Shown piece after piece: positions 1 through 10,340 of a stretch of DNA of 10,369 bases. The translations under genes and the position numbers were made by a program. Under the pieces are notes generated by a model. That model saw nothing but the letters and a program-made list of their open reading frames with translations. It did no database searches and had not been told where the DNA came from. Each line of letters begins with the position of its first letter. The stretch's first letter is position 1. The stretch lies in NCBI GenBank assembly GCA_018677115.1, contig JAHHOC010000010.1, positions 1 through 10,369 of the forward strand. Direction: 5' to 3'. Origin of the DNA: Arenicella sp. Lineage in GTDB: Bacteria > Pseudomonadota > Gammaproteobacteria > Arenicellales > Arenicellaceae.

Positions 1-607
1 CTTCGGAAGGCACCAAGTTACCGCCCTGGTCAACCATCTTGGTGCAAGTTACCTGCCACTCTGAACCCGTCCACTGGTAATCATCGACCTGCCATTTGCG
101 CTCGATACTGACTCCGCGCTGGCGGGCACCTTTAGCCATCGCCATGGTCACATCGGCAGGATTGATATAACCATCGGTGGGATGATAAATGGCGCCTTCC
201 AGATCATCGGTATGAATCAGCGGCCAACGTTCTTTAATCTGCGCTGGCGTTAATCGTTCATAGGGCACGCCCACCGTTTCAGCGGTGGAACCATAGAGCA
301 TAAATTCATCCATGCGGTCTTTGCTCTGCGCCATGCGCAGATTACCGACCACAGAGAACCCGGCGTTGAGACCGGTTTCTGCTTCCAATGACTTATAGAA
401 GCGTACCGAGTAATCATGCAGGTGAGTGGTTGCGTAACCCATGTTAAACAGTGGCAGCAGCCCGGCTGCATGCCAGGTTGAACCCGAGGTCAGCTCGTCA
501 CGTTCGACCAGCATCACGTCATCCCAGCCATACTTGGCAAGATGATAGGCAATGCTGGCGCCAACAGCGCCTCCCCCGACAACCAGGGCTTTTACGTGAG
601 TTTTCAT
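1..607 (-). CDS. FAD-dependent dimethylglycine/sarcosine dehydrogenase-like protein, N-terminal part
   Basis: The gene starts with ATG at 607-605 and runs off the left edge; 202 codons are visible. Members of this family oxidise an N-methyl amine such as dimethylglycine or sarcosine and usually pass the C1 unit to tetrahydrofolate through a C-terminal GcvT-like domain, which would lie outside the window. The N-terminus has a Rossmann dinucleotide fold: beta strand KALVV, then GGGAVG at residues 11-16, with the strand-2 acidic residue in LVERDEL (Glu35). The motif SGSTWHAAGL (residues 41-50) is characteristic of dimethylglycine/sarcosine dehydrogenases; the matching histidine (His46 here) carries covalent FAD in the mammalian enzymes. 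The start is supported by AGGA (plus-strand 616-619) eight bases upstream and by the FAD-binding strand beginning at residue 6. It is divergent from fhs. The substrate is uncertain: sarcosine, dimethylglycine or an N-methylated amino acid such as N-methylglutamate are all possible. Confidence 0.88.
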   Translation of the reverse strand, partial: MKTHVKALVVGGGAVGASIAYHLAKYGWDDVMLVERDELTSGSTWHAAGLLPLFNMGYATTHLHDYSVRFYKSLEAETGLNAGFSVVGNLRMAQSKDRMDEFMLYGSTAETVGVPYERLTPAQIKERWPLIHTDDLEGAIYHPTDGYINPADVTMAMAKGARQRGVSIERKWQVDDYQWTGSEWQVTCTKMVDQGGNLVPSE

Positions 608-782: not shown

Positions 783-889
783 AGCATGTCGCGGGGAGAA
801 TAGTTTTTAAAACCCGCTCTCTTTAGTATTTCGCAGACCATAAAGACGTGGCAACCACGGCCGCTGCAAACAAGTTTGGAACAGTTCAA
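783..889 (+). promoter_or_regulatory. Long, possibly structured fhs 5' leader
   Basis: Between the predicted start and the ATG at 890 two hairpins can be drawn. The first pairs GCGGG (791-795) with CCCGC (813-817) around a 17-nt AT-rich loop. The second has an inner stem CGTGG (847-851)/CCACG (855-859) with a 3-nt loop, closed by an outer GCAG (833-836)/CTGC (864-867). I could not match it to the glycine, THF or SAM riboswitch consensus. It may be an unrecognised cis-regulatory RNA or chance pairing. Confidence 0.3.
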
Positions 890-2566
890 ATGACCTACAA
901 ATCAGATATTGAAATAGCGCGCGAAGCGAACAAACAGCCAATTCAGGAAATCGGCGCCAAACTCGCAATTCCCAGTGAACATCTGCTGCCGTTTGGCCAT
1001 GATAAGGCAAAGGTCAGTGCGGAGTTCATCGAGGCTCAGGCGAATGGGCAAGACGGCAAACTTATCCTCGTTACAGCGATAAACCCGACGCCGGCAGGTG
1101 AAGGCAAAACCACCACAACCGTTGGCCTGGGAGACGGCCTCAACGCCATTGGCAAGAAAGCCGCGATATGCATCCGCGAGGCATCATTAGGCCCGTGTTT
1201 CGGTATGAAAGGCGGTGCGGCTGGCGGCGGCATGGCACAGGTAGTGCCGATGGAAGATATGAACCTGCACTTTACCGGTGACTTCCACGCGATCACCTCT
1301 GCACACAACCTGCTGTCAGCGATGATCGATAATCACATCTACTGGGGCAATGAATTGGAGATCGACCACCGCCGGGTAACCTGGCGCCGGGTGATGGACA
1401 TGAATGACCGCGCATTACGCGACACCGTCACCAGCCTTGGCGGAGTCGCAAACGGGATACCCCGCCAGACCGGCTTTGACATTACAGTCGCATCTGAAGT
1501 GATGGCGATACTATGCCTGGCCACAGACCTGGCTGACCTGCAAAAGCGCCTCGGTGACATTATCGTGGCCTATCGCCGGGACTTGAGCCCCATTTACTGT
1601 CGGGATATCAAAGCCGACGGTGCGATGACGGTGCTGCTGCAACAGGCCATGCAACCGAATCTGGTACAAACTCTGGAAAACAATCCGGCCTTCGTGCATG
1701 GCGGCCCATTCGCCAACATTGCCCACGGCTGCAACTCGGTGGTGGCCACTAAAACGGCGCTTAAACTGGCAGACTACGTGGTCACAGAGGCGGGCTTCGG
1801 TGCTGACCTTGGAGCAGAAAAATTCCTCAATATCAAATGCCGCAAGGCCGGCCTGGCGCCGAGCGCAATTGTACTGGTGGCAACTGTTCGCGCGATGAAA
1901 ATGAATGGCGGGGTGGCAAAAGCGGATCTGGGGCCAGAAAATGTTGCAGCGGTCCGAGACGGCTGCCCGAATCTGGGACGGCATATTGAAAATCTGAAGT
2001 CATTCGGAGTTCCGGTGGTAGTTGCAATTAACCACTTTGTCAGCGATACCGATGCCGAAGTACAGGCAATCAAGGACTACGTGGTTGAGCAAGGCTCCGA
2101 AGCGATACTTTCCAAGCACTGGGAATTCGGCTCAGAGGGTTCAACCGAGTTGGCTGAACGGGTAGCTGAGGTGGCAGATGCGGATATGGCGAACTTCGCT
2201 CCCATTTACCCGGACGACATGCCGCTGTTTGAAAAAATGGAGACCATCGCCAAGCGTATATACCGGGCCGACGAAGTTCTCGCTGACAAGAAGGTGCGGG
2301 ATCAGTTGCATCGTTGGGAGCAGCAGGGTTATGGCCACCTGCCGATCTGTATGGCAAAAACCCAATACAGCTTCAGCACCGACCCTGCACTGCGCGGTGC
2401 ACCGGACCATCACTCGGTGCCAGTACGTGAAGTTCGACTGGCAGCCGGCGCCGGTTTCATCGTGGCTATCTGCGGTGAAATCATGACCATGCCGGGGCTG
2501 CCGAGGGTTCCCAGTGCCGAAGCGATTGGTATCAATGACGCCGGCCAGATTGATGGTTTATTTTAA
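890..2566 (+). CDS. fhs: Formate--tetrahydrofolate ligase (10-formyl-THF synthetase)
   Basis: This enzyme catalyses the reversible ATP-dependent joining of formate to tetrahydrofolate to give 10-formyl-THF in the cytoplasm. In C1-oxidising aerobes it can run backwards, releasing formate and conserving ATP. The protein is 558 residues, the usual length of the family. It has the Fhs P-loop [15 protein letters not shown] (about residues 66-80), the conserved [18 protein letters not shown] stretch (97-114), and the typical C-terminus with [18 protein letters not shown] ending in GLF. I chose ATG 890 because the family usually begins at this KSDIEIA segment and GGAA (878-881) sits eight bases upstream. 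A GTG at 848 would add 14 residues without a ribosome site. It is the only plus-strand gene, divergent from the FAD dehydrogenase and convergent with mttB. Context suggests that it handles C1 units released by demethylation. Confidence 0.97.
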
Positions 2567-2594: not shown

Positions 2595-4163
2595 CTAATA
2601 CCACTTATCCTCTGAGGCTTGCTTGGTGTTGGCGATGAACGCTTTCAGTTCGTCGTCTATGGCCGGATCTAAATCCGGTTGCTGATAGTCGGCGAGTAGC
2701 GCTTTCCAGTGCTCATTGGCGCGCTGCACGGCTTGCTTGCTACCATTTTCAGTCCACTGTTCGACGCTTTCAGAATCAGACAGCTTGGCGTCAAAAAAAG
2801 CCGTTTCATAATTGTGCATAGTGTGTTCGCAGCCGAGGAAATGCCCTCCCGGTTCAACTTCCCGGTAAGCCTGTTTGCCGAGCGCATTATCATCGGTCGA
2901 CATGCCCTGCAGCATACGCTGCATTGCGCCGAGGCGGTCAGCATCCAGCACCAGCTTCTCATAGCTGCTGACTAAACCGCCTTCCAGCCAGCCAGCGGCA
3001 TGAATCACAAAATTGGCACCGCCCAGTACCGTGGAATGCAAACTGTCGGCGCTTTCATAGGCGGCCTGCGCATCACAGCGCTTGGAGGCCGTCAAAGCAC
3101 CGCCGCAACGCAGCGGCACACCCAGCCGCCGGGCTAGCTGACCGATCGCATAATTCGACATTACCGGTTCCGGCATACCGAATGTCGGCGCTCCGGACTT
3201 GAGGCTCATCGAAGACAGAAAGTTGCCCAATACGAACGGCGCGCCCTTGCGCACTAGCTGGCTGAAAGCCCCTGCCGCCATTCCCTCTGCCAGCGCCTGC
3301 GCCAAACTGGCAGCGGTGGTGACCGGCCCCATGGCGCCACCGAGAATAAACGGTGCTACAACAATACCCTGGTTGGCACCGCAGTAGACCTGGATTGCCT
3401 GCGTGGCAACCTTGTCAAACATCAGTGGCGAGTTGGCGTTGACGTTGCCGATCACACAGCAATGATCACGCATGAATTCCTCACCAAACAGGATGCGGGT
3501 CATGGTGATTGAGTCTTCGGCGCGGTCCTGGGCAGTAATCGCACCTAGATAAGCTTTCTCCGAATAGCGCATATGCGCATACACAATATCCAGGTGACGC
3601 TTATTAACCGGCACATCACATGGCTCAACCAGAATCCCGCCTGAGTGGTGCAAGGATGGCGTTTTGTAAACGATTTTGATCAGCTGCTGCAAATCTTGCA
3701 GGCTGCCGTAGCGCCGGCCGTCATCGATGTCGCTGACAAACGGCGCACAGTGTACCGGGCTGAACACCGCATTTTCTCCGCCGATGACGACATTGAAATG
3801 CGGATTGCGCGCGTGCTGGGTGAACTGTGATGGAATCGTGCTGCATAATTCGCGCGCCATGCCGGCTGGCAAGCGCACCCGCACACCATCTACATCTGCG
3901 CCGGCGTCTTTCCAGATCTCGAGAGCCAGTGGATCATCACGAAACTCGATTCCCACTTCCTGCATCAGCCAATCGGCATGTTCCTCGATCCGTACCAGTG
4001 CTTCCTCATCGAGAAAGTCGTAATAGGGAATCTTGCGCTTTACATACGCGGGTGCCTTTGCTTCGAGTTCCTTATCTGCCAGCTTGCGGGCAACGGCACG
4101 CGCTTTGCGCCCGCCCCTGCGTTGTGGCTTCGCTTCGGTTTCTGATCCAGCTGCACCCGGCAT
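2595..4163 (-). CDS. MttB-family (COG5598) methylamine/betaine methyltransferase, non-pyrrolysine type
   Basis: The 522-residue protein belongs to the trimethylamine methyltransferase MttB family. Characterised non-pyrrolysine relatives (for example MtgB) transfer a methyl group from glycine betaine or other quaternary amines to a corrinoid protein. Visible marks are a Lys/Arg/Ala-rich N-terminal tail (residues 11-45) common in proteobacterial members, the core segment PFILGGAMGPVTTAASLAQA (271-290), GGALTASKRCDAQAAYES (354-371), and a C-terminal GHFLGCEHTMHNYETAFF (440-457). No in-frame amber codon is bridged; the only TAG is the terminal stop (2597-2595). The start ATG 4163 has GAGG (plus 4171-4174) seven bases upstream. 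It lies 209 bp after the Ldh_2 gene and has its own promoter. No corrinoid protein, activator or methyl-THF transferase is in the window, so the partner is unknown. The substrate cannot be assigned; quaternary amines are the best guess. Confidence 0.85.
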   Translation of the reverse strand: MPGAAGSETEAKPQRRGGRKARAVARKLADKELEAKAPAYVKRKIPYYDFLDEEALVRIEEHADWLMQEVGIEFRDDPLALEIWKDAGADVDGVRVRLPAGMARELCSTIPSQFTQHARNPHFNVVIGGENAVFSPVHCAPFVSDIDDGRRYGSLQDLQQLIKIVYKTPSLHHSGGILVEPCDVPVNKRHLDIVYAHMRYSEKAYLGAITAQDRAEDSITMTRILFGEEFMRDHCCVIGNVNANSPLMFDKVATQAIQVYCGANQGIVVAPFILGGAMGPVTTAASLAQALAEGMAAGAFSQLVRKGAPFVLGNFLSSMSLKSGAPTFGMPEPVMSNYAIGQLARRLGVPLRCGGALTASKRCDAQAAYESADSLHSTVLGGANFVIHAAGWLEGGLVSSYEKLVLDADRLGAMQRMLQGMSTDDNALGKQAYREVEPGGHFLGCEHTMHNYETAFFDAKLSDSESVEQWTENGSKQAVQRANEHWKALLADYQQPDLDPAIDDELKAFIANTKQASEDKWY

Positions 4164-4274: not shown

Positions 4275-4302
4275 ATCATAAAAATTGATTTCACAGTTTC
4301 AA
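4275..4302 (-). promoter_or_regulatory. Predicted sigma70 promoter of mttB
   Basis: On the minus strand TTGAAA (plus 4297-4302, 5 of 6 matches) is followed after 16 bp by TATGAT (plus 4275-4280, 5 of 6 matches). The start would be near 4268, giving a leader of about 105 nt. The palindrome CAATATATTG (4300-4309) overlaps the -35 box and ACCTGCCAGGT (4261-4271) sits at the start, so mttB is probably regulated separately from the upstream operon. Confidence 0.55.
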
Positions 4303-4372: not shown

Positions 4373-5380
4373 TCAGGCTGCGTAACTGTTTATTTGCTCA
4401 AGTAGAGACTCATCAACCATCACACCATCACGAATGTTTTGTTGGCGCTTACTCTTGGCTTTATCTCCCGGTACATGTGCGCCCTCCTGCTGTGCGATGG
4501 CATTGACCAGGTCAGCGACACGTTGTGCAAACAAATCACCTGAAAAAGCCTGCGGATCAAAAGCAATAAAGCACTGTCCGGTACCCGGTGGCCCGCCCTT
4601 GGTGCCTGCAAAGGGACTTGCATCCTTACTCAGTAGCGCGCCCGCCAGGCAGGAGGCCAACAACTCCGCGACCATGCCAATGCCGAACCCTTTGTAGCCA
4701 CCGGCCGGTGCCATCGAGCCTTTGAGTGCCTCATCAGCATCGGTGGTTGGGTTGCCTTCAGCGTCCATTGCCCAATCTGATTCAATCGATTCACCGCTGC
4801 GCGAGCGCATCATGATCTCCGATTTCGCTACCACGCTGGCTGACTGGTCAATGGAAATGGCTGCACCGCCGTCGCCATCAGGCACCGCAATGGCAAAAGG
4901 ATTAGTGCCGATGACCGGCGTACTGGCGCCGGTGGGAGCAATCGATGCCGGCGCGTGGGTAAAACACAGGCCAACCAGCCCGGTTTCGGCAAGGCGTTGT
5001 GCATGGTGCCCCAGCACCCCGCAATTGTAAGAGTTGTTGACAGTCATTGCCGCCACACCATTGGCCTGCGCCGCAGCGGTAAAGGTCTCCCATCCGGCAT
5101 CAATGGCAGGGTGCGCAAAACCGGATCGGGCGTCCACGCGCACTGCAGCCGGTCGACTGACAATCACTTTGGGATCGGCGAGACCATCCACTTTGCCACA
5201 TCGAACATGTTCGGCATAGATCGGCACATACATCAATCCGTGACTACGAATTCCATCCCGCTCTGCAAGCACCGTAGAGCGGGCAACCGAGGCTGCATTG
5301 ATTTCGCTGGCTCCGGCACCCTGCAGCGCACGCTCGGTGATCTGTTGAACTTCGGTGAGGCTGATGTTTTTTTCGGTCAT
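4373..5380 (-). CDS. Ldh_2 (malate/L-lactate/imino-acid) NAD(P)-dependent oxidoreductase
   Basis: The 335-residue protein is of normal length for the COG2055 family. That family includes malate, lactate, sulfolactate and ureidoglycolate dehydrogenases and the delta1-piperideine-2-carboxylate reductases. Visible motifs are DGIRSHGL (42-49, containing the family histidine His47), SYNCGVLGHH (117-126), APASIAPTGASTPVIGTNPF (143-162), AIAVP, and the cofactor-side GGYKGFGIGMVAELL (227-241), followed by TKGGPPGTGQCFIAFDP. The form SYNCG replaces the SNHFG seen in many malate/ureidoglycolate-type members and fits the imino-acid/keto-acid branch. ATG 5380 is preceded by a weak GAGA. It follows the DUF3726 gene by 33 nt and is the last gene of the tight operon. 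A soluble reductase/dehydrogenase for a cyclic imine or 2-keto acid is likely; the substrate is unproven. Confidence 0.88.
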   Translation of the reverse strand: MTEKNISLTEVQQITERALQGAGASEINAASVARSTVLAERDGIRSHGLMYVPIYAEHVRCGKVDGLADPKVIVSRPAAVRVDARSGFAHPAIDAGWETFTAAAQANGVAAMTVNNSYNCGVLGHHAQRLAETGLVGLCFTHAPASIAPTGASTPVIGTNPFAIAVPDGDGGAAISIDQSASVVAKSEIMMRSRSGESIESDWAMDAEGNPTTDADEALKGSMAPAGGYKGFGIGMVAELLASCLAGALLSKDASPFAGTKGGPPGTGQCFIAFDPQAFSGDLFAQRVADLVNAIAQQEGAHVPGDKAKSKRQQNIRDGVMVDESLLEQINSYAA

Positions 5381-5413
5381 TTTGTTCTCGGTGTTATTTG
5401 ACTATTTATCCGT

Positions 5414-6160
5414 TTAAGCTCCGGCTCCCTTACGGGATTGCTCGGTACTCTCTACCAACACGTTGTTTGCCATGCAACGCAGGCGGTCCCACAGTGTATC
5501 GGTAATTTCGATGCCGTTGCTCAACGATTGTTGAAAAGCAGCGCTTAATTCGTTGGGCTCTATCCTCTTCAGCGGATTCTTATTGATAAAACTGCAGTGC
5601 GCTAAAGCGTACTCACGGGTGCCTTCCGGATCCATCGCACAAACCAGATATAGCGCCTGCGGTTCCACTTCAGCTTGACACTGATAGCTGGAAATCTGTG
5701 GATACTGTGCTCCAGCGTCACTGGTAATTGCATGCACCAGGCCGGGCTCATCAGCGTCCTGCCAGTAGCTAAGGCAATGCGCTCCGCGTGCACAGCAGTC
5801 GACTATTTTTTTGGTCATCAACTGCCGGTCGTAAATGCGGCTTATTGTTGCGCTGCAAATTCCCCTGTTAACAGCACTGGCAAACACCGCGTTGCAAATC
5901 AATTCACCGCAGGCAAGTGCGCTTTTATCGCCTGCATCAAACATTAAATCGCCCCCGGCACTGCTAGGCTTTTCAATTAACGGTGCTGAAGACTCACTCA
6001 ATCGGTCAAGTTTGGCTGGCAACCGCGCAAATACATCGAGGCCATGCATCTCCGCCCACACCACCATGTCTGCCGCACTTTCATACCTTCCAGCGTCGAA
6101 GCCGATGCCTTCGAAAGCCTGCTTAAACAAAGTAAGCAGCTCAGTTTGTGAGGCCTTCAT
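5414..6160 (-). CDS. DUF3726-type protein, function unknown
   Basis: The 248-residue protein has no signal peptide or membrane segment. The C-terminus (residues about 222-248: LWDRLRCMANNVLVESTEQS, then a run ending in GAGA) and the N-terminal pattern around residues 6-48 match my recollection of DUF3726, a short uncharacterised proteobacterial family. The N-terminal 43 residues also align without gaps to the N-terminus of the neighbouring Ldh_2 enzyme (about 11 identities, including AEMHG versus AERDG), but the catalytic SHG is replaced by VFA. It contains eight cysteines. The start codon overlaps the stop of the 571-residue gene as ATGA, so translation is coupled and the two proteins are probably made in matched amounts. 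A non-catalytic partner or subunit of the Ldh_2 or of the 571-residue protein is possible; this is inference. Confidence 0.75.
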   Translation of the reverse strand: MKASQTELLTLFKQAFEGIGFDAGRYESAADMVVWAEMHGLDVFARLPAKLDRLSESSAPLIEKPSSAGGDLMFDAGDKSALACGELICNAVFASAVNRGICSATISRIYDRQLMTKKIVDCCARGAHCLSYWQDADEPGLVHAITSDAGAQYPQISSYQCQAEVEPQALYLVCAMDPEGTREYALAHCSFINKNPLKRIEPNELSAAFQQSLSNGIEITDTLWDRLRCMANNVLVESTEQSRKGAGA

Positions 6161-7872
6161 GTTGCACCCGGTTCTCCAGCGACCGGAAAATACCAGTCGT
6201 CGGCAAACGGTTTACCAATATCAGACAAAATCGGCGCGCCCTGGAACATGGTGTTGCGGACCCAAAGCTTGGATTTTGGATCAAATTTGCTCACCCCGAA
6301 GAAAGATAATTTACAGCGCAGCAAATCCAGCGGCAGCATTTCTTTGTCAGCCAGATTCGCTCGAATATCTCCATAACATTCCTGCGACATTGTCTGTATG
6401 CGTTTCACGATGCTGGCCATGCCAGGGTGGCGCAACAGAAAATAGGCCACCGGCTCGGCCTCATCAAGTTCTTCCATATCGGCAAGCAGACAGTCATAGC
6501 ACTGGCGAACCAGGCGCGCAATTGTCAGTGGCATTTCCTTGTCCGCGCCCGGCTCGGCAAACCGTTCACCGAGCCTTGGTTCCATTTTTTCTTCCGAGCG
6601 ATACCAGAAATAGTGATTGCAGTCGTGATTGGAGAAATCGATGTCGAGCGCCCAGCCATAACGCGTTTCGATCAGTTGTTTTAATTCTGCCCGGGACATC
6701 TCGGCGCTAAGCTGATGGTTCTCATCGACGCAACCATATTGTTCGCAGGCATCAACCAGATCCGGAAAAACTTCGAGCAACACTGAGTTGATCAACTCCT
6801 GGGTTTCAAGGCTGCAGTTTTCTGCCAGGTGCTGTGTCAATTGCGACCAGCTTGCTGCATCACAATTCCATTTTTTGATCCAGCTTTGAATTTCTACCAG
6901 CTCCTTTTGCAGACACTTATTGCGCGCAACCTGAACAGGGTCCGGCACAGTTGTTTCGGCAAAGTGTTGAGCTGCTTTTGCCATAATCGCCTGGAACTTG
7001 TGCACGCTTGCGGGATTCACTTCACCCTGCTGAACAACGGTTGCGATAGCCCGTTCGCGTGTTAAAACCCACTGACTGATCAACTGCGGATGGCGAATCA
7101 GATACGGCGCCATTCCCAGGCCGGTGGAATTACCAATACCGAGATAGCGTTTGACCTCATCCTGCATCGGCACGGCAGTGTCAGGTGACTTAATCCGTGC
7201 CAGGTGCTCTGCCTGTTGCACACTGAAGTGCCGCAACATATAACAGCACAGCATCTCGGCTGCAAAGGGGTGTGCGAATTCCGCACATTGGCTGGAGACT
7301 TTGGCCCAGTCGGCCATACCAAATTTGCCGCTGCCGTAGACCGCCGTGGTGCGATAAAGATAACCGACATTGGCCAGGTACTGCATTGATGGCTGCCGGC
7401 CTGCGGCCAACTCATCGACCACATAGTTAAAATTTCTCGAGCTTTTATTACCGCGGGATAGCACGATCGTGTTCGAACGGCACCGCCCAGCTTCCTGTTT
7501 AGGTACATTGGTGCGCATATCCGCAAGCTGATCGGCGCTCACATCACCGATACACAACGCCATCGTGACATCCCACTTGTCGGCGATTACCCGGTCATTG
7601 CGGTCTTCATCGGCCAGATAGTCGGCAAACGCGACAAAGCTGTAGGTGTTTTCATTCGCCTCGATGCGATAGATCACCGTACCGAAACCCTGATCATCCA
7701 GCTCAACCAGCACAGGTGTGAATTGCCACTGCTGAGACATTACCCGGCGCATCAGGGCACGCATGAAACTCAGGCGCGTCTGGTGCATGCTGCCAAGCCG
7801 CTTCAGGTCCATCACCACTTCGGGGGACCGCATGGGCAGAATCGTAGGTTGGGTAGCGAGTGCGTCAGTCAT
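6157..7872 (-). CDS. Uncharacterised 571-residue conserved-looking protein
   Basis: I cannot assign this protein to a named family. It is soluble: no signal peptide or convincing membrane span is seen. Motif-like segments are LGSMHQTRLSFMRALMRR (26-43), QEAGRCRSNTIVLSRGNKSS (126-145), GYLYRTTAVYGSGKFGMADW (170-189), a glycine-rich YLGIGNSTGLGMAPYLIRHP (243-262), and a His/Cys/aromatic patch with SNHDCNHYFWYRSEEK (414-429). It has 15 cysteines scattered over the length, with one CxxC (458-461). The codons read cleanly and the frame is intact over 1.7 kb, so it is a real gene. ATG 7872 lies 20 nt after the M19-like gene but lacks a clear Shine-Dalgarno; ATG 7833 (residue 14) is an alternative. 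Its stop overlaps the DUF3726 start. Operon position suggests a catalytic or binding role in the same catabolic pathway. Confidence 0.85.
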   Translation of the reverse strand: MTDALATQPTILPMRSPEVVMDLKRLGSMHQTRLSFMRALMRRVMSQQWQFTPVLVELDDQGFGTVIYRIEANENTYSFVAFADYLADEDRNDRVIADKWDVTMALCIGDVSADQLADMRTNVPKQEAGRCRSNTIVLSRGNKSSRNFNYVVDELAAGRQPSMQYLANVGYLYRTTAVYGSGKFGMADWAKVSSQCAEFAHPFAAEMLCCYMLRHFSVQQAEHLARIKSPDTAVPMQDEVKRYLGIGNSTGLGMAPYLIRHPQLISQWVLTRERAIATVVQQGEVNPASVHKFQAIMAKAAQHFAETTVPDPVQVARNKCLQKELVEIQSWIKKWNCDAASWSQLTQHLAENCSLETQELINSVLLEVFPDLVDACEQYGCVDENHQLSAEMSRAELKQLIETRYGWALDIDFSNHDCNHYFWYRSEEKMEPRLGERFAEPGADKEMPLTIARLVRQCYDCLLADMEELDEAEPVAYFLLRHPGMASIVKRIQTMSQECYGDIRANLADKEMLPLDLLRCKLSFFGVSKFDPKSKLWVRNTMFQGAPILSDIGKPFADDWYFPVAGEPGAT

Positions 7873-7879
7873 CGATGTT

Positions 7880-7903
7880 GCTAGCCGAGCGGCTAGCCGA
7901 GCG
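7880..7903. repeat. Exact 12-bp tandem duplication over the M19-like stop codon
   Basis: GCTAGCCGAGCG occurs twice in direct succession (7880-7891 and 7892-7903). In the minus-strand reading frame the duplicated unit is CCG CTC GGC TAG, so the peptide ending PLG-stop is written twice. The second copy fills most of the 20-nt spacer before the next gene, which has no recognisable ribosome site. Confidence 0.8.
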
Positions 7904-8879
7904 GCTCGAACGACTGTTCAAAAAAGCGCAGCCAGTTACGTCCCATTAGCTTGTCGATGTCCTGTTGCGTAAATCCCTCAGCAGCCAGGCCCTCGGCGAT
8001 ATTCATTATGTCCTGCGAGCCCTGGAACCAATCCGGTTGACGTGGCCACTCTTTGTTGTCCGCTGTGCCTTCACCGTAATCTGCGGCAAAGGTCCAGCGG
8101 CCGCTGCGCATCCATTCCAGGGTCTCGTAGCCCCAGCCCTCGCACATGTCAGATCCGATACCAAGGTGGTCGATGCCCATAATCTCAACGGTTTGCCCGA
8201 TCATCTGGCAAAACTCCTGCAATGTGCAATCTGCTCCGTTTTTCAAATGAAACGGGTACATGCTGAAGCCCAGCATACCGCCTGATTCGCCTAGTGCTTG
8301 CAGCACCCGATCAGATTTATTGCGCAAAGCGTCGTGAAAAAATGTCGGGTTGGCATGGGTGATTGCAATCGGCCTTTCAGAAAGCTCGATTGCCTCCAAT
8401 GTAGAGCGTTCCGCCGAATGCGACATGTCAATCAGCATGCCGACACGGTTCATCTCCTTGATCGCCTGCTTGCCAAAGCGTGTTATGCCGGGATCGTTTT
8501 CCTCATAACAGCCGGTCGCCAACAGGCTTTGGTTGTTATACGAAAGTTGCATGATGCGTGCTCCCAGATCATGCAGCACCTTGATCAGGGATATATCGTC
8601 CTCGATAGGTGAACAATTCTGAAAACCGAATACGATCCCAAGCTTGCCGGACTGTTTGGCTTGCAATACATCGGCAGCGCTGCGCACTGGCATGATCAGA
8701 TCAGCATTATTGTCGAAATGACGTTGCCACTGACTGATGTTGGCGATCACTTCACGAAAGTTTTCCCAGTAGGCGATGGTTACATGCACCGTGGTGATGC
8801 CGCTGTCGCGGGTTCTCTCAAACCGCTCGCGGTTCCAATTTATATACTGCAGACCATCGATTATTATTTGATCGTTCAC
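7893..8879 (-). CDS. M19 membrane-dipeptidase-like protein of the dimethylglycine-locus type
   Basis: The 328-residue TIM-barrel-type protein resembles renal dipeptidase (peptidase M19). The second half keeps canonical features: IDMSHSAER with His154, PIAITHANP with His175, the RN pair (186-187), and GIGSD with Asp244. The first metal site is not conserved: the usual HxD near the N-terminus is replaced in IIIDGLQYINWNRE (5-18), and the bridging Glu position reads GFQN (85-88). The same two changes occur in M19-like proteins encoded beside dimethylglycine-demethylation genes, for example PA5396 of Pseudomonas aeruginosa (from memory). There is no signal peptide, so it is probably cytoplasmic, unlike secreted dipeptidases. 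The start is GTG 8879, the only usable start between the upstream in-frame TGA and the family N-terminus; no strong Shine-Dalgarno is seen. Peptidase activity is doubtful. A lactone, imide or amide substrate, or a structural role, is equally possible. Confidence 0.85.
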   Translation of the reverse strand: MNDQIIIDGLQYINWNRERFERTRDSGITTVHVTIAYWENFREVIANISQWQRHFDNNADLIMPVRSAADVLQAKQSGKLGIVFGFQNCSPIEDDISLIKVLHDLGARIMQLSYNNQSLLATGCYEENDPGITRFGKQAIKEMNRVGMLIDMSHSAERSTLEAIELSERPIAITHANPTFFHDALRNKSDRVLQALGESGGMLGFSMYPFHLKNGADCTLQEFCQMIGQTVEIMGIDHLGIGSDMCEGWGYETLEWMRSGRWTFAADYGEGTADNKEWPRQPDWFQGSQDIMNIAEGLAAEGFTQQDIDKLMGRNWLRFFEQSFEPLG

Positions 8880-8894
8880 GGCAACTGGCTCAAC

Positions 8895-10340
8895 TCAATA
8901 CGGTTTTGAATAATTGGTTTTAACGGTGGTGTAAAATTCCGCCGCATATTTTCCCTGTTCGCGTGAACCGTAGCTGGATGATTTGCGCCCGCCGAACGGC
9001 ACATGGTAGTCGGTGCCGGCCGTGGGCAAATTAACCATCACGCATCCGGATTTGGAATGGCGTTTGAAATGTGCGGAGCGCGCCAGGCTTTGAGTAATAA
9101 TTCCTGACGTTAGGCCGAATTCAGTGTCGTTAGACATTGCCAGGGCATGCTCGTAATCACGCGCTTTAATCACACAGGCCACCGGCCCGAAAATCTCTTC
9201 ACGGTTGATGCGCATGTCGTTGCTAGTTTCAGTAAACAATGTGGGTTCGATGTAATACCCCTCCGGGTCGAGCTCCATTTTATTGCCGCCGGCTACCAGT
9301 TTACCGCCCTCGGTGCTGGCCAGTTCAATATATTCCAAAACCTGTTGAAACTGTCTGGCGCTTGCCACAGAGCCTATCTGCATGCCTTCGGCAAGTGGAT
9401 TACCCACTTTCAATTTGGCCATCTCCGACATCATCAGTTCGACAAACTGGTCGTGCACACCCTGCTCTACGATCAGGCGTGAAGAGGCAGTGCATTTCTG
9501 GCCGGTGCCGAAGTAGGCGCCGTTAATGGCACAGGCCACTGCGGTATCAAGATCGGCGTCATTCAAAACCACCAGCGCATTCTTGCTGCCCATTTCGAGT
9601 TGAATCTTGCCCATATTGCCGATGACATTGCCGGCAATGCGTCGGCCGATATTGACCGAGCCGGTAAAGGTCACAGCGTTGACCTGTGCAGATGAACTGA
9701 TGGTTTCACCCACTTCACTTCCGCTACCCATGACCAGGTTAAACACCCCTGCAGGCAAGCCACTGCGGCTGATTATCTCGGCTAATATCCAGGCGCTGGC
9801 CGGCACCAGCTCCGCGGGTTTCAGAACCACGGTATTACCAAACGCCAGCGCGGGGGCGACCTTCCATGCCGCTACCGCCATCGGGAAATTCCACGGCGTG
9901 ATGATACCAATCACTCCAACCGGTTCGCGACGCACTTCCACGTCGATACCGGGGCGCACCGATTCGGTGACCTCGCCCATCTGGCGCAGGGTCTCGGCCG
10001 CGTAATACTGGAAAAACTGTCCCGAGCGGTAGACTTCCCCTACTCCCTCGGCAACGGTCTTGCCTTCTTCACGAGCCAGAATATGGCCAATTTCAGCGCT
10101 GCGTTCGATCAACTCGTTGCCGATTTTATCGAGCACTGCTTTTCGTTCTTCCAGTGGAGATTGGGCCCAGGCCGGCGCCGCATTATGTGCCGCTTGAATC
10201 GCCGCTGCAGCATCTTCTGCATCAGCATGCGCATAGCACCCGATCACGTCGGCTAAATCGGAGGGGCTGGTATTGTCCTGATAGTTTTTTGCCGGGACCC
10301 ATTCGCCATTGATAAAATTGTCATGGTTTTGCTGCGTCAT
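8895..10340 (-). CDS. NAD(P)-dependent aldehyde dehydrogenase, 2-oxoglutarate-semialdehyde type
   Basis: This is a full-length 481-residue aldehyde dehydrogenase. It shows TPWNF with oxyanion Asn151, the coenzyme Lys174 in VLKPAE, general base Glu249 in LEMGSKN, nucleophile Cys283 in GTGQKCTASSR, EEIFGP (381-386) and PFGG (448-451). LEMG in place of LELG, the GQKCTASSRLIV stretch and the C-terminal SREQGKYAAEFYTTVKT resemble alpha-ketoglutarate-semialdehyde (2,5-dioxovalerate) dehydrogenases such as Bacillus YcbD/GucD. Family members oxidise C5 or similar semialdehydes to dicarboxylates. One oddity is Ser252 where almost all relatives have Gly in the EMGGK motif. ATG 10340 has GGAG about 11 bases upstream, and the codon overlaps a possible upstream stop. 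It lies 15 nt before the M19-like gene and is the first complete gene of the operon. The precise substrate is inferred, not proven. Confidence 0.92.
   Translation of the reverse strand: MTQQNHDNFINGEWVPAKNYQDNTSPSDLADVIGCYAHADAEDAAAAIQAAHNAAPAWAQSPLEERKAVLDKIGNELIERSAEIGHILAREEGKTVAEGVGEVYRSGQFFQYYAAETLRQMGEVTESVRPGIDVEVRREPVGVIGIITPWNFPMAVAAWKVAPALAFGNTVVLKPAELVPASAWILAEIISRSGLPAGVFNLVMGSGSEVGETISSSAQVNAVTFTGSVNIGRRIAGNVIGNMGKIQLEMGSKNALVVLNDADLDTAVACAINGAYFGTGQKCTASSRLIVEQGVHDQFVELMMSEMAKLKVGNPLAEGMQIGSVASARQFQQVLEYIELASTEGGKLVAGGNKMELDPEGYYIEPTLFTETSNDMRINREEIFGPVACVIKARDYEHALAMSNDTEFGLTSGIITQSLARSAHFKRHSKSGCVMVNLPTAGTDYHVPFGGRKSSSYGSREQGKYAAEFYTTVKTNYSKPY

Follow-up and report, generated by a model that had tools for sequence, protein, structure and literature searches.

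The bacterial breakdown of N-methylpyridinium carboxylates is exemplified by the trigonelline (tgn) pathway of Acinetobacter baylyi, which includes an N-formyl intermediate formed by ring opening and an aldehyde dehydrogenase step, and uses a flavin monooxygenase, its reductase and an amidase. For homarine (N-methylpicolinate), Ferrer-Gonzalez et al. (2026; Nat Microbiol 11:1531) reportedly describe an operon, homABCDER, of five structural genes and a regulator, which is said to yield N-methylglutamate and glutamate and to occur in Rhodobacterales, SAR11 and SAR116. According to PMC13390433, which cites that work, the conserved pathway reported for homarine involves N-methylglutamate dehydrogenase (Mgd). 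Inside phytoplankton cells, N-methylated betaines such as homarine reach high concentrations, and a marine bacterium removes them rapidly, Ruegeria pomeroyi drawing homarine down fast (PMC12817926). Here we analyse five genes lying on the minus strand at positions 4373-10340 of a 10,369-base stretch of Arenicella sp. DNA (contig JAHHOC010000010.1; hereafter the window), which is a complete contig from an incomplete assembly (82% complete, 510 contigs), and which encode an aldehyde dehydrogenase (ALDH), an M19-like protein, a protein of 571 amino acids (571-aa protein), a DUF3726 protein and an Ldh_2 oxidoreductase. On balance, the evidence favours the joint reading that these genes form one catabolic operon and that this operon breaks down an imported zwitterionic N-methyl betaine, most likely homarine, and yields an N-methyl amino acid, of which N-methylglutamate is the likeliest. 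The interpretation offered by a first-pass annotation of the window, i.e. breakdown of an N-methylated ring compound or amino acid, is thereby partly supported, and homarine, one of its examples, is the compound for which the pathway involving Mgd has now been reported.

The packing of the five genes, with gaps of 15, 20, -4 and 33 nucleotides (nt), is exactly as first annotated; the open reading frames (ORFs) of all five and the Pfam assignments of the four other than the 571-aa protein were confirmed. The window ends only 29 nt upstream of the ALDH gene, so that the operon start and regulator fall beyond the visible sequence; comparison of the window with Rfam gave nothing at gathering score. 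Related loci (L numbers; their genomes bear G numbers) were collected by an alignment-based contig scan, which returned at least 593 stretches showing the pattern; confirmation was obtained for 574 of them, and we used the best 80, taking at most 10 kb on either flank. Neighbours were counted by tblastn, with E-value limits of our own choosing, within 7 kb of the gene for the 571-aa protein. Among these 80 loci, which are the closest relatives rather than a random draw, DUF3726 was found in 78, M19 in 70, ALDH in 64, LysR in 59 (LysR and ALDH being common families), BCCT in 54, RidA in 40, Ldh_2 in 16, SoxB-like genes in 8, SoxA-like genes in 5, M24 in 3 and MttB in 1. The four-gene core, i.e. 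the set without Ldh_2, was complete in 62 of the 80 and all five genes were present in 12. The genes do co-occur as neighbours across marine Proteobacteria, and the first-pass annotation, which a lack of such co-occurrence would have refuted, stands in this respect. Restricting the count to the 55 loci whose flanks both extend for 7 kb or more gave DUF3726 54, M19 52, ALDH 49, LysR 48, BCCT 43, RidA 33 and Ldh_2 8, with the core complete in 48 and all five genes in 6. Counts based on ORF calls were lower (core 46/78, all five 10/78), because antisense ORFs had displaced ALDH, M19, BCCT or DUF3726 in some loci (L010, L012, L025, L031, L054, L055, L070); the tblastn counts accordingly indicate stronger conservation, and do not alter how likely any substrate is. 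A supposed 506-aa gene with no Pfam match in L010 was withdrawn, being an antisense ORF over ALDH.

The five-gene arrangement recurs, preceded by a regulator, in Ruegeria (LysR-ALDH-M19-571-DUF3726-Ldh_2 in L124 and L180), and LysR is also adjacent in G004, a genome of the window's own genus. In seven Ruegeria-type loci with short flanks (L132-L138, out of some 50 matches), ALDH, M19, the 571-aa gene and Ldh_2 are present in 7/7 and DUF3726 was called in 6/7; its apparent absence from the remaining locus may stem from ORF calling. The 571 family as a whole occurs in 38 of 397 Pseudomonadota genomes sampled evenly over the phylum (the window's own included), in 53 of 385 genomes from the class of the Ruegeria centre and 52 of 54 from its genus (the centre included in each), in 29 of 61 of the window's relatives (again with the centre), and in 4 of 17 other genomes of the window's genus. 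A two-gene form, LysR-571-DUF3726, is real, tblastn detecting neither ALDH nor M19 in L008 and L009. Some alphaproteobacteria carry two or three 571 copies per genome (L124 and L125 in the Ruegeria genome G061; L009 and L126 in G062; L068, L127 and L128 in G065), and some of the copies sit in a short unit lacking ALDH and M19.

In a comparison with the reported homarine operon, the five genes plus regulator said to compose homABCDER match, by number, LysR and the five genes in Ruegeria; a match of number is not one of identity. Mgd participates in the reported pathway (PMC13390433), and Sox/Mgd-like genes lie beside the operon in some related loci, whereas the regulator has no visible counterpart in the window, nor is a transporter visible there. 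Four low-GC genomes of 1.2-1.4 Mb from the Ruegeria class (L224-L227) contain M19-571-DUF3726, to which L224 and L225 alone add ALDH; we infer these genomes to be SAR11-like, and the arrangement is consistent with the SAR11 occurrence reportedly noted for the homarine operon. Literature searches returned no gene list for homABCDER or for homarine catabolism.

Transporters at the related loci bear directly on the substrate class. All seven BCCT genes sampled were confirmed by Pfam. BCCT lies between M19 and the 571-aa gene in loci of Halomonas and Marinobacter as well as at L112 of the same-genus genome G004, while in L224 and L225 the position immediately upstream of ALDH is taken by a glycine-betaine ABC transporter of OpuAC type, comprising binding protein, permease and ATPase. 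That two unrelated families of betaine transporter occupy the same place argues for a zwitterionic betaine as the substrate, and supports the substrate class first proposed. RidA, found in 40/80 loci and Pfam-checked in one representative, together with the likeness of the Ldh_2 protein to delta1-piperideine-2-carboxylate reductase, is in keeping with imine or enamine intermediates. Members of the SoxBDAG-like families remove the methyl group from N-methyl amino acids such as sarcosine and N-methylglutamate, and clusters of this kind adjoin the operon in L003, L014, L047, L064 and L071 (checked with NCBIfam in L003 and L027), which fits an N-methyl amino acid as the product. In G004 a single plus-strand run reads ALDH-M19-BCCT-571-DUF3726-Ldh_2-TonB receptor-TPR/sulfotransferase-formyltransferase-SoxB/D/A/G-like. 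The surroundings of the Sox-like neighbours, comprising an AraC-type regulator, serine dehydratase, MoeA and formyltransferase, do not discriminate between sarcosine oxidase and N-methylglutamate dehydrogenase. A divergent Sox-like type (837-871 bits, below the cut-off of 1164) occurs next to the operon in G063 and at a distance of about 10 kb in G004, as well as at a further site in G004 and in G107.

For the ALDH, the best NCBIfam model is alpha-ketoglutaric semialdehyde dehydrogenase (NF042993), which it matches below the cut-off (498.1 vs 770); Cys283 is kept in 71/71 aligned relatives and Glu249 in 69/71. The M19-like protein belongs to its family as first assigned. At the position aligned to the metal-bridging Glu it has Gln87, as do 75/75 aligned relatives (not all independent); the N-terminal HxD motif is absent, with Leu in 74/75, Gln in 74/75 and Tyr in 69/75 at its place, and His154, His175 and Asp244 are kept in 75/75. 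As judged from these alignments, the protein is not a normal dipeptidase and its binuclear metal site is incomplete. The closest solved relative, PDB 2i5g (an 'amidohydrolase' of M19 fold, E 1.7e-70), presumably from Pseudomonas, likewise has Gln for the bridging Glu and lacks the N-terminal HxD. These features reduce the appeal of a reading in which the substrate is a conjugate of peptide-like or amino-acid type, with M19 as dipeptidase, ALDH and Ldh_2 taking the released hydroxy or keto acid, and the 571-aa and DUF3726 proteins as accessories. The Pfam labels of M19 (membrane dipeptidase) and Ldh_2 (malate/lactate dehydrogenase) would suit such a role, but the substitution of the bridging Glu in every aligned relative, the betaine types to which the transporters of these loci belong, and the absence of peptide transporters among 50 chosen neighbour proteins scanned with Pfam render it improbable.

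The nearest solved structure to the Ldh_2 protein is delta1-piperideine-2-carboxylate / pyrroline-2-carboxylate reductase (PDB 1wtj, E 7.9e-46), which we take to be DpkA, an N-methyl-L-amino acid dehydrogenase, so that its earlier description as a reductase of the imino-acid family was fair. The window protein, which is the sole Ldh_2 found in the incomplete assembly, keeps the motifs SHG, GTNP and GGYKG, and hand-written patterns of these three types matched 58, 61 and 54, respectively, of 62 distinct Ldh_2 hits at related loci.

DUF3726 shares the Ldh_2 fold in its predicted model, in shrunken form, but not the Ldh_2 motifs, GTNP and GG[YHFA]KG occurring in 0/141 distinct DUF3726 hits and the column of His39 holding His in 7/24. 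On otherwise fast-evolving proteins, the window gene and family alignment reveal a conserved C-terminal tail, SR..GAGA(..DND). Rather than being an oxidoreductase in its own right, DUF3726 is probably a partner subunit of the 571-aa protein. The latter matches nothing in Pfam, NCBIfam or PHROG, and no PDB sequence up to E 1; its AlphaFold2 (AF2) model has a predicted local distance difference test score of 90.6 and gives no clear match to solved structures. The family nevertheless has thousands of relatives (at least 7,999 candidates were scored, all of which passed, the best 120 being listed). We tentatively propose that the two proteins make up one enzyme of an undescribed structural class, in which DUF3726 would be an Ldh_2 reductase turned non-catalytic whose GAGA tail reaches into the 571-aa protein; the pair would open the N-methylpyridinium ring of homarine and related compounds in its dearomatised form, and exchange of the front end (ALDH, M24 or none) would retune the module to several marine betaines. 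A literature search on DUF3726 found no paper, and the literature searched made no mention of its Ldh_2 origin, its tail, the altered M19 site or the M24 variants, some of which the 2026 homarine paper may describe.

The tgn pathway provides a mechanistic model for the scheme that we propose for the operon, although family scans recognised none of its enzyme types (flavin monooxygenase, reductase or amidase) among the five genes. In the first step the 571-aa protein, with the non-catalytic DUF3726, would open the N-methylpyridinium ring at C5-C6, leaving an N-formyl or equivalent one-carbon (C1) unit on the nitrogen and an aldehyde at C5, which ALDH would oxidise to the carboxylate in the second. 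The M19-like protein would then split off the C1 unit (ring C6) as formate, which the neighbouring formate-tetrahydrofolate ligase (Fhs) could capture, and in a fourth step Ldh_2 would reduce the resulting N-methyl-imine or enamine to N-methylglutamate, from which a flavoprotein of Sox/Mgd or dimethylglycine-dehydrogenase type, coded elsewhere, would remove the N-methyl group. Since conversion of homarine to N-methylglutamate requires C6 to leave while the N-methyl group and C2 carboxylate stay, the scheme uses every gene once. All of its steps are putative, being drawn from gene content, conservation, linkage to transporters and demethylases, the predicted DUF3726 fold and the altered M19 site. 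On this basis the likely enzyme pair, the metal-altered hydrolase and the probable imine reductase are candidate markers for the flux of betaine carbon and nitrogen, and the 571-aa protein would be an enzyme whose chemistry is absent from the family libraries used and whose model lacks a clear solved-fold match. If the published homarine operon consists of the same genes, that of the window belongs to an already known pathway.

Several observations weigh against assigning the operon to homarine in this manner. Its identity with the published operon is circumstantial. The window holds no transporter gene, and the rest of the assembly encodes two full-length BCCTs, which share only 29-30% identity with one operon-type BCCT. 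Ldh_2, the rarest of the five, is missing nearby in 64/80 loci, so that the fourth step must often be supplied by a distant gene, and MttB, encoded downstream in the window, has no role that homarine breakdown would need. Among 168 distinct 571-family proteins there are zero near-invariant Cys and a single near-invariant His, which argues against the usual two-His iron ring-cleaving oxygenases. For the Sox-like neighbours the best solved relative is sarcosine oxidase, and sarcosine oxidase and N-methylglutamate dehydrogenase are indistinguishable here. A second full-length 571 type occurs in 3/54 genomes of the Ruegeria genus, a fourth genome giving a partial second match, and the window's 571-aa protein is 53-54% identical to this second, two-gene type vs 40-42% to the five-gene type; clades could therefore differ in substrate. 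Finally, a creatinase-family M24 gene replaces ALDH before M19-571-DUF3726, mostly with Ldh_2, in L072 (7670-8926), L073 (7678-8931), L119 (12487-13791) and L101, possibly as the same module acting on another substrate; that of L073 is DddP-like, scoring below the respective cut-off, and is preceded by MttB and a dimethylglycine-dehydrogenase-like gene in a run (MttB, dimethylglycine-dehydrogenase-like, M24, M19, 571, DUF3726, Ldh_2) of one direction throughout.

The second 571 type, the three copies of G065 and the M24 variants, with MttB and the dimethylglycine-dehydrogenase-like gene accompanying that of L073, could be accommodated if the same chemistry were applied to other N-methylated betaines (trigonelline, the betaines of proline and hydroxyproline, or another marine zwitterion related to these), with 571/DUF3726 clades differing in their betaine and that of the window not acting on homarine; MttB-superfamily enzymes act on quaternary amines, which is in keeping with this. 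However, the gene set of the window is that of the five-gene Ruegeria type, to which its ALDH, M19 and Ldh_2 proteins are 54-61% identical, and we regard this alternative as rather doubtful, though deserving of attention. The homarine-type reading of the operon is thus retained, and the features of the window are collected in Table 1.

Table 1. Positions, strands and sequence support of features in the window.
Feature	Position	Strand	Support
NAD(P)+ aldehyde dehydrogenase	8895..10340	-	Aldedh 528 bits
M19-like, M19-fold amidohydrolase-like protein, subfamily with altered metal site	7893..8879	-	Peptidase_M19 261 bits, cut-off 26
571-aa protein, candidate ring-opening enzyme	6157..7872	-	No family match; AF2 model
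DUF3726 protein, shrunken Ldh_2 fold, C-terminal SR..GAGA tail	5414..6160	-	DUF3726 38.5 bits, cut-off 22.1
Ldh_2 oxidoreductase, probable N-methyl-imine reductase	4373..5380	-	Ldh_2 (PF02615) 315.5 bits, cut-off 38.8
Promoter-like site TTGAAA-16-TATGAT, between Ldh_2 and MttB	4275..4302	-	Consensus match only
MttB-superfamily methyltransferase, neighbour, probably not operon member	2595..4163	-	Pfam MTTB 716 bits
Formate-tetrahydrofolate ligase (Fhs)	848..2566	+	FTHFS 881 bits
DAO-type FAD protein, N-terminal part, cut by the window's low end	2..607	-	Pfam family match

The FAD enzyme and Fhs noted beside the operon in the first-pass annotation were both recovered, the former as a partial gene, and MttB does follow the operon, its gene starting 209 nt after Ldh_2; it is probably a separate unit with variable linkage. 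The promoter-like site preceding it is a 10-of-12 match and, with 13 such sites in the window vs a mean of 6.9 in shuffled sequences, is weak. Against the model for pyrrolysine-containing trimethylamine methyltransferase (TIGR02369) the protein scores 246, below the cut-off of 525. The FAD fragment is 50-52% identical to FAD plus GcvT-type (dimethylglycine-dehydrogenase-like) genes that adjoin the operon in L027 and L066.

These last genes, the one-direction run of L073 from MttB to Ldh_2, and a 71% identical MttB (cut by the contig end) that adjoins the operon in the same-genus locus L115 would be expected if all the genes of the window served one pathway, in which MttB took the first methyl group off a quaternary nitrogen, the dimethylglycine-dehydrogenase-like enzyme acted next, and the operon handled the remaining ring or chain. 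We consider this very unlikely, given that MttB lies within 7 kb in only 1/80 loci and that in the window the 209-nt interval contains the promoter-like site. Furthermore, in the same-genus genome G015, genes 93% (Fhs) and 84% (MttB) identical to those of the window occur together with a TRAP transporter, SoxBDAG and an AraC-type regulator (L190:102-14666), on a contig different from that bearing the operon. This suggests that Fhs and MttB constitute a unit of their own for methylamine or one-carbon metabolism, whose position next to the operon in the window is fortuitous. As a further observation on the surroundings of the operon, paired genes for a TonB-dependent receptor and a TPR/sulfotransferase protein are found next to it repeatedly (L027:1617-6470, L112:13633-18365), the receptor cluster being represented in 7 loci and the other in 9.

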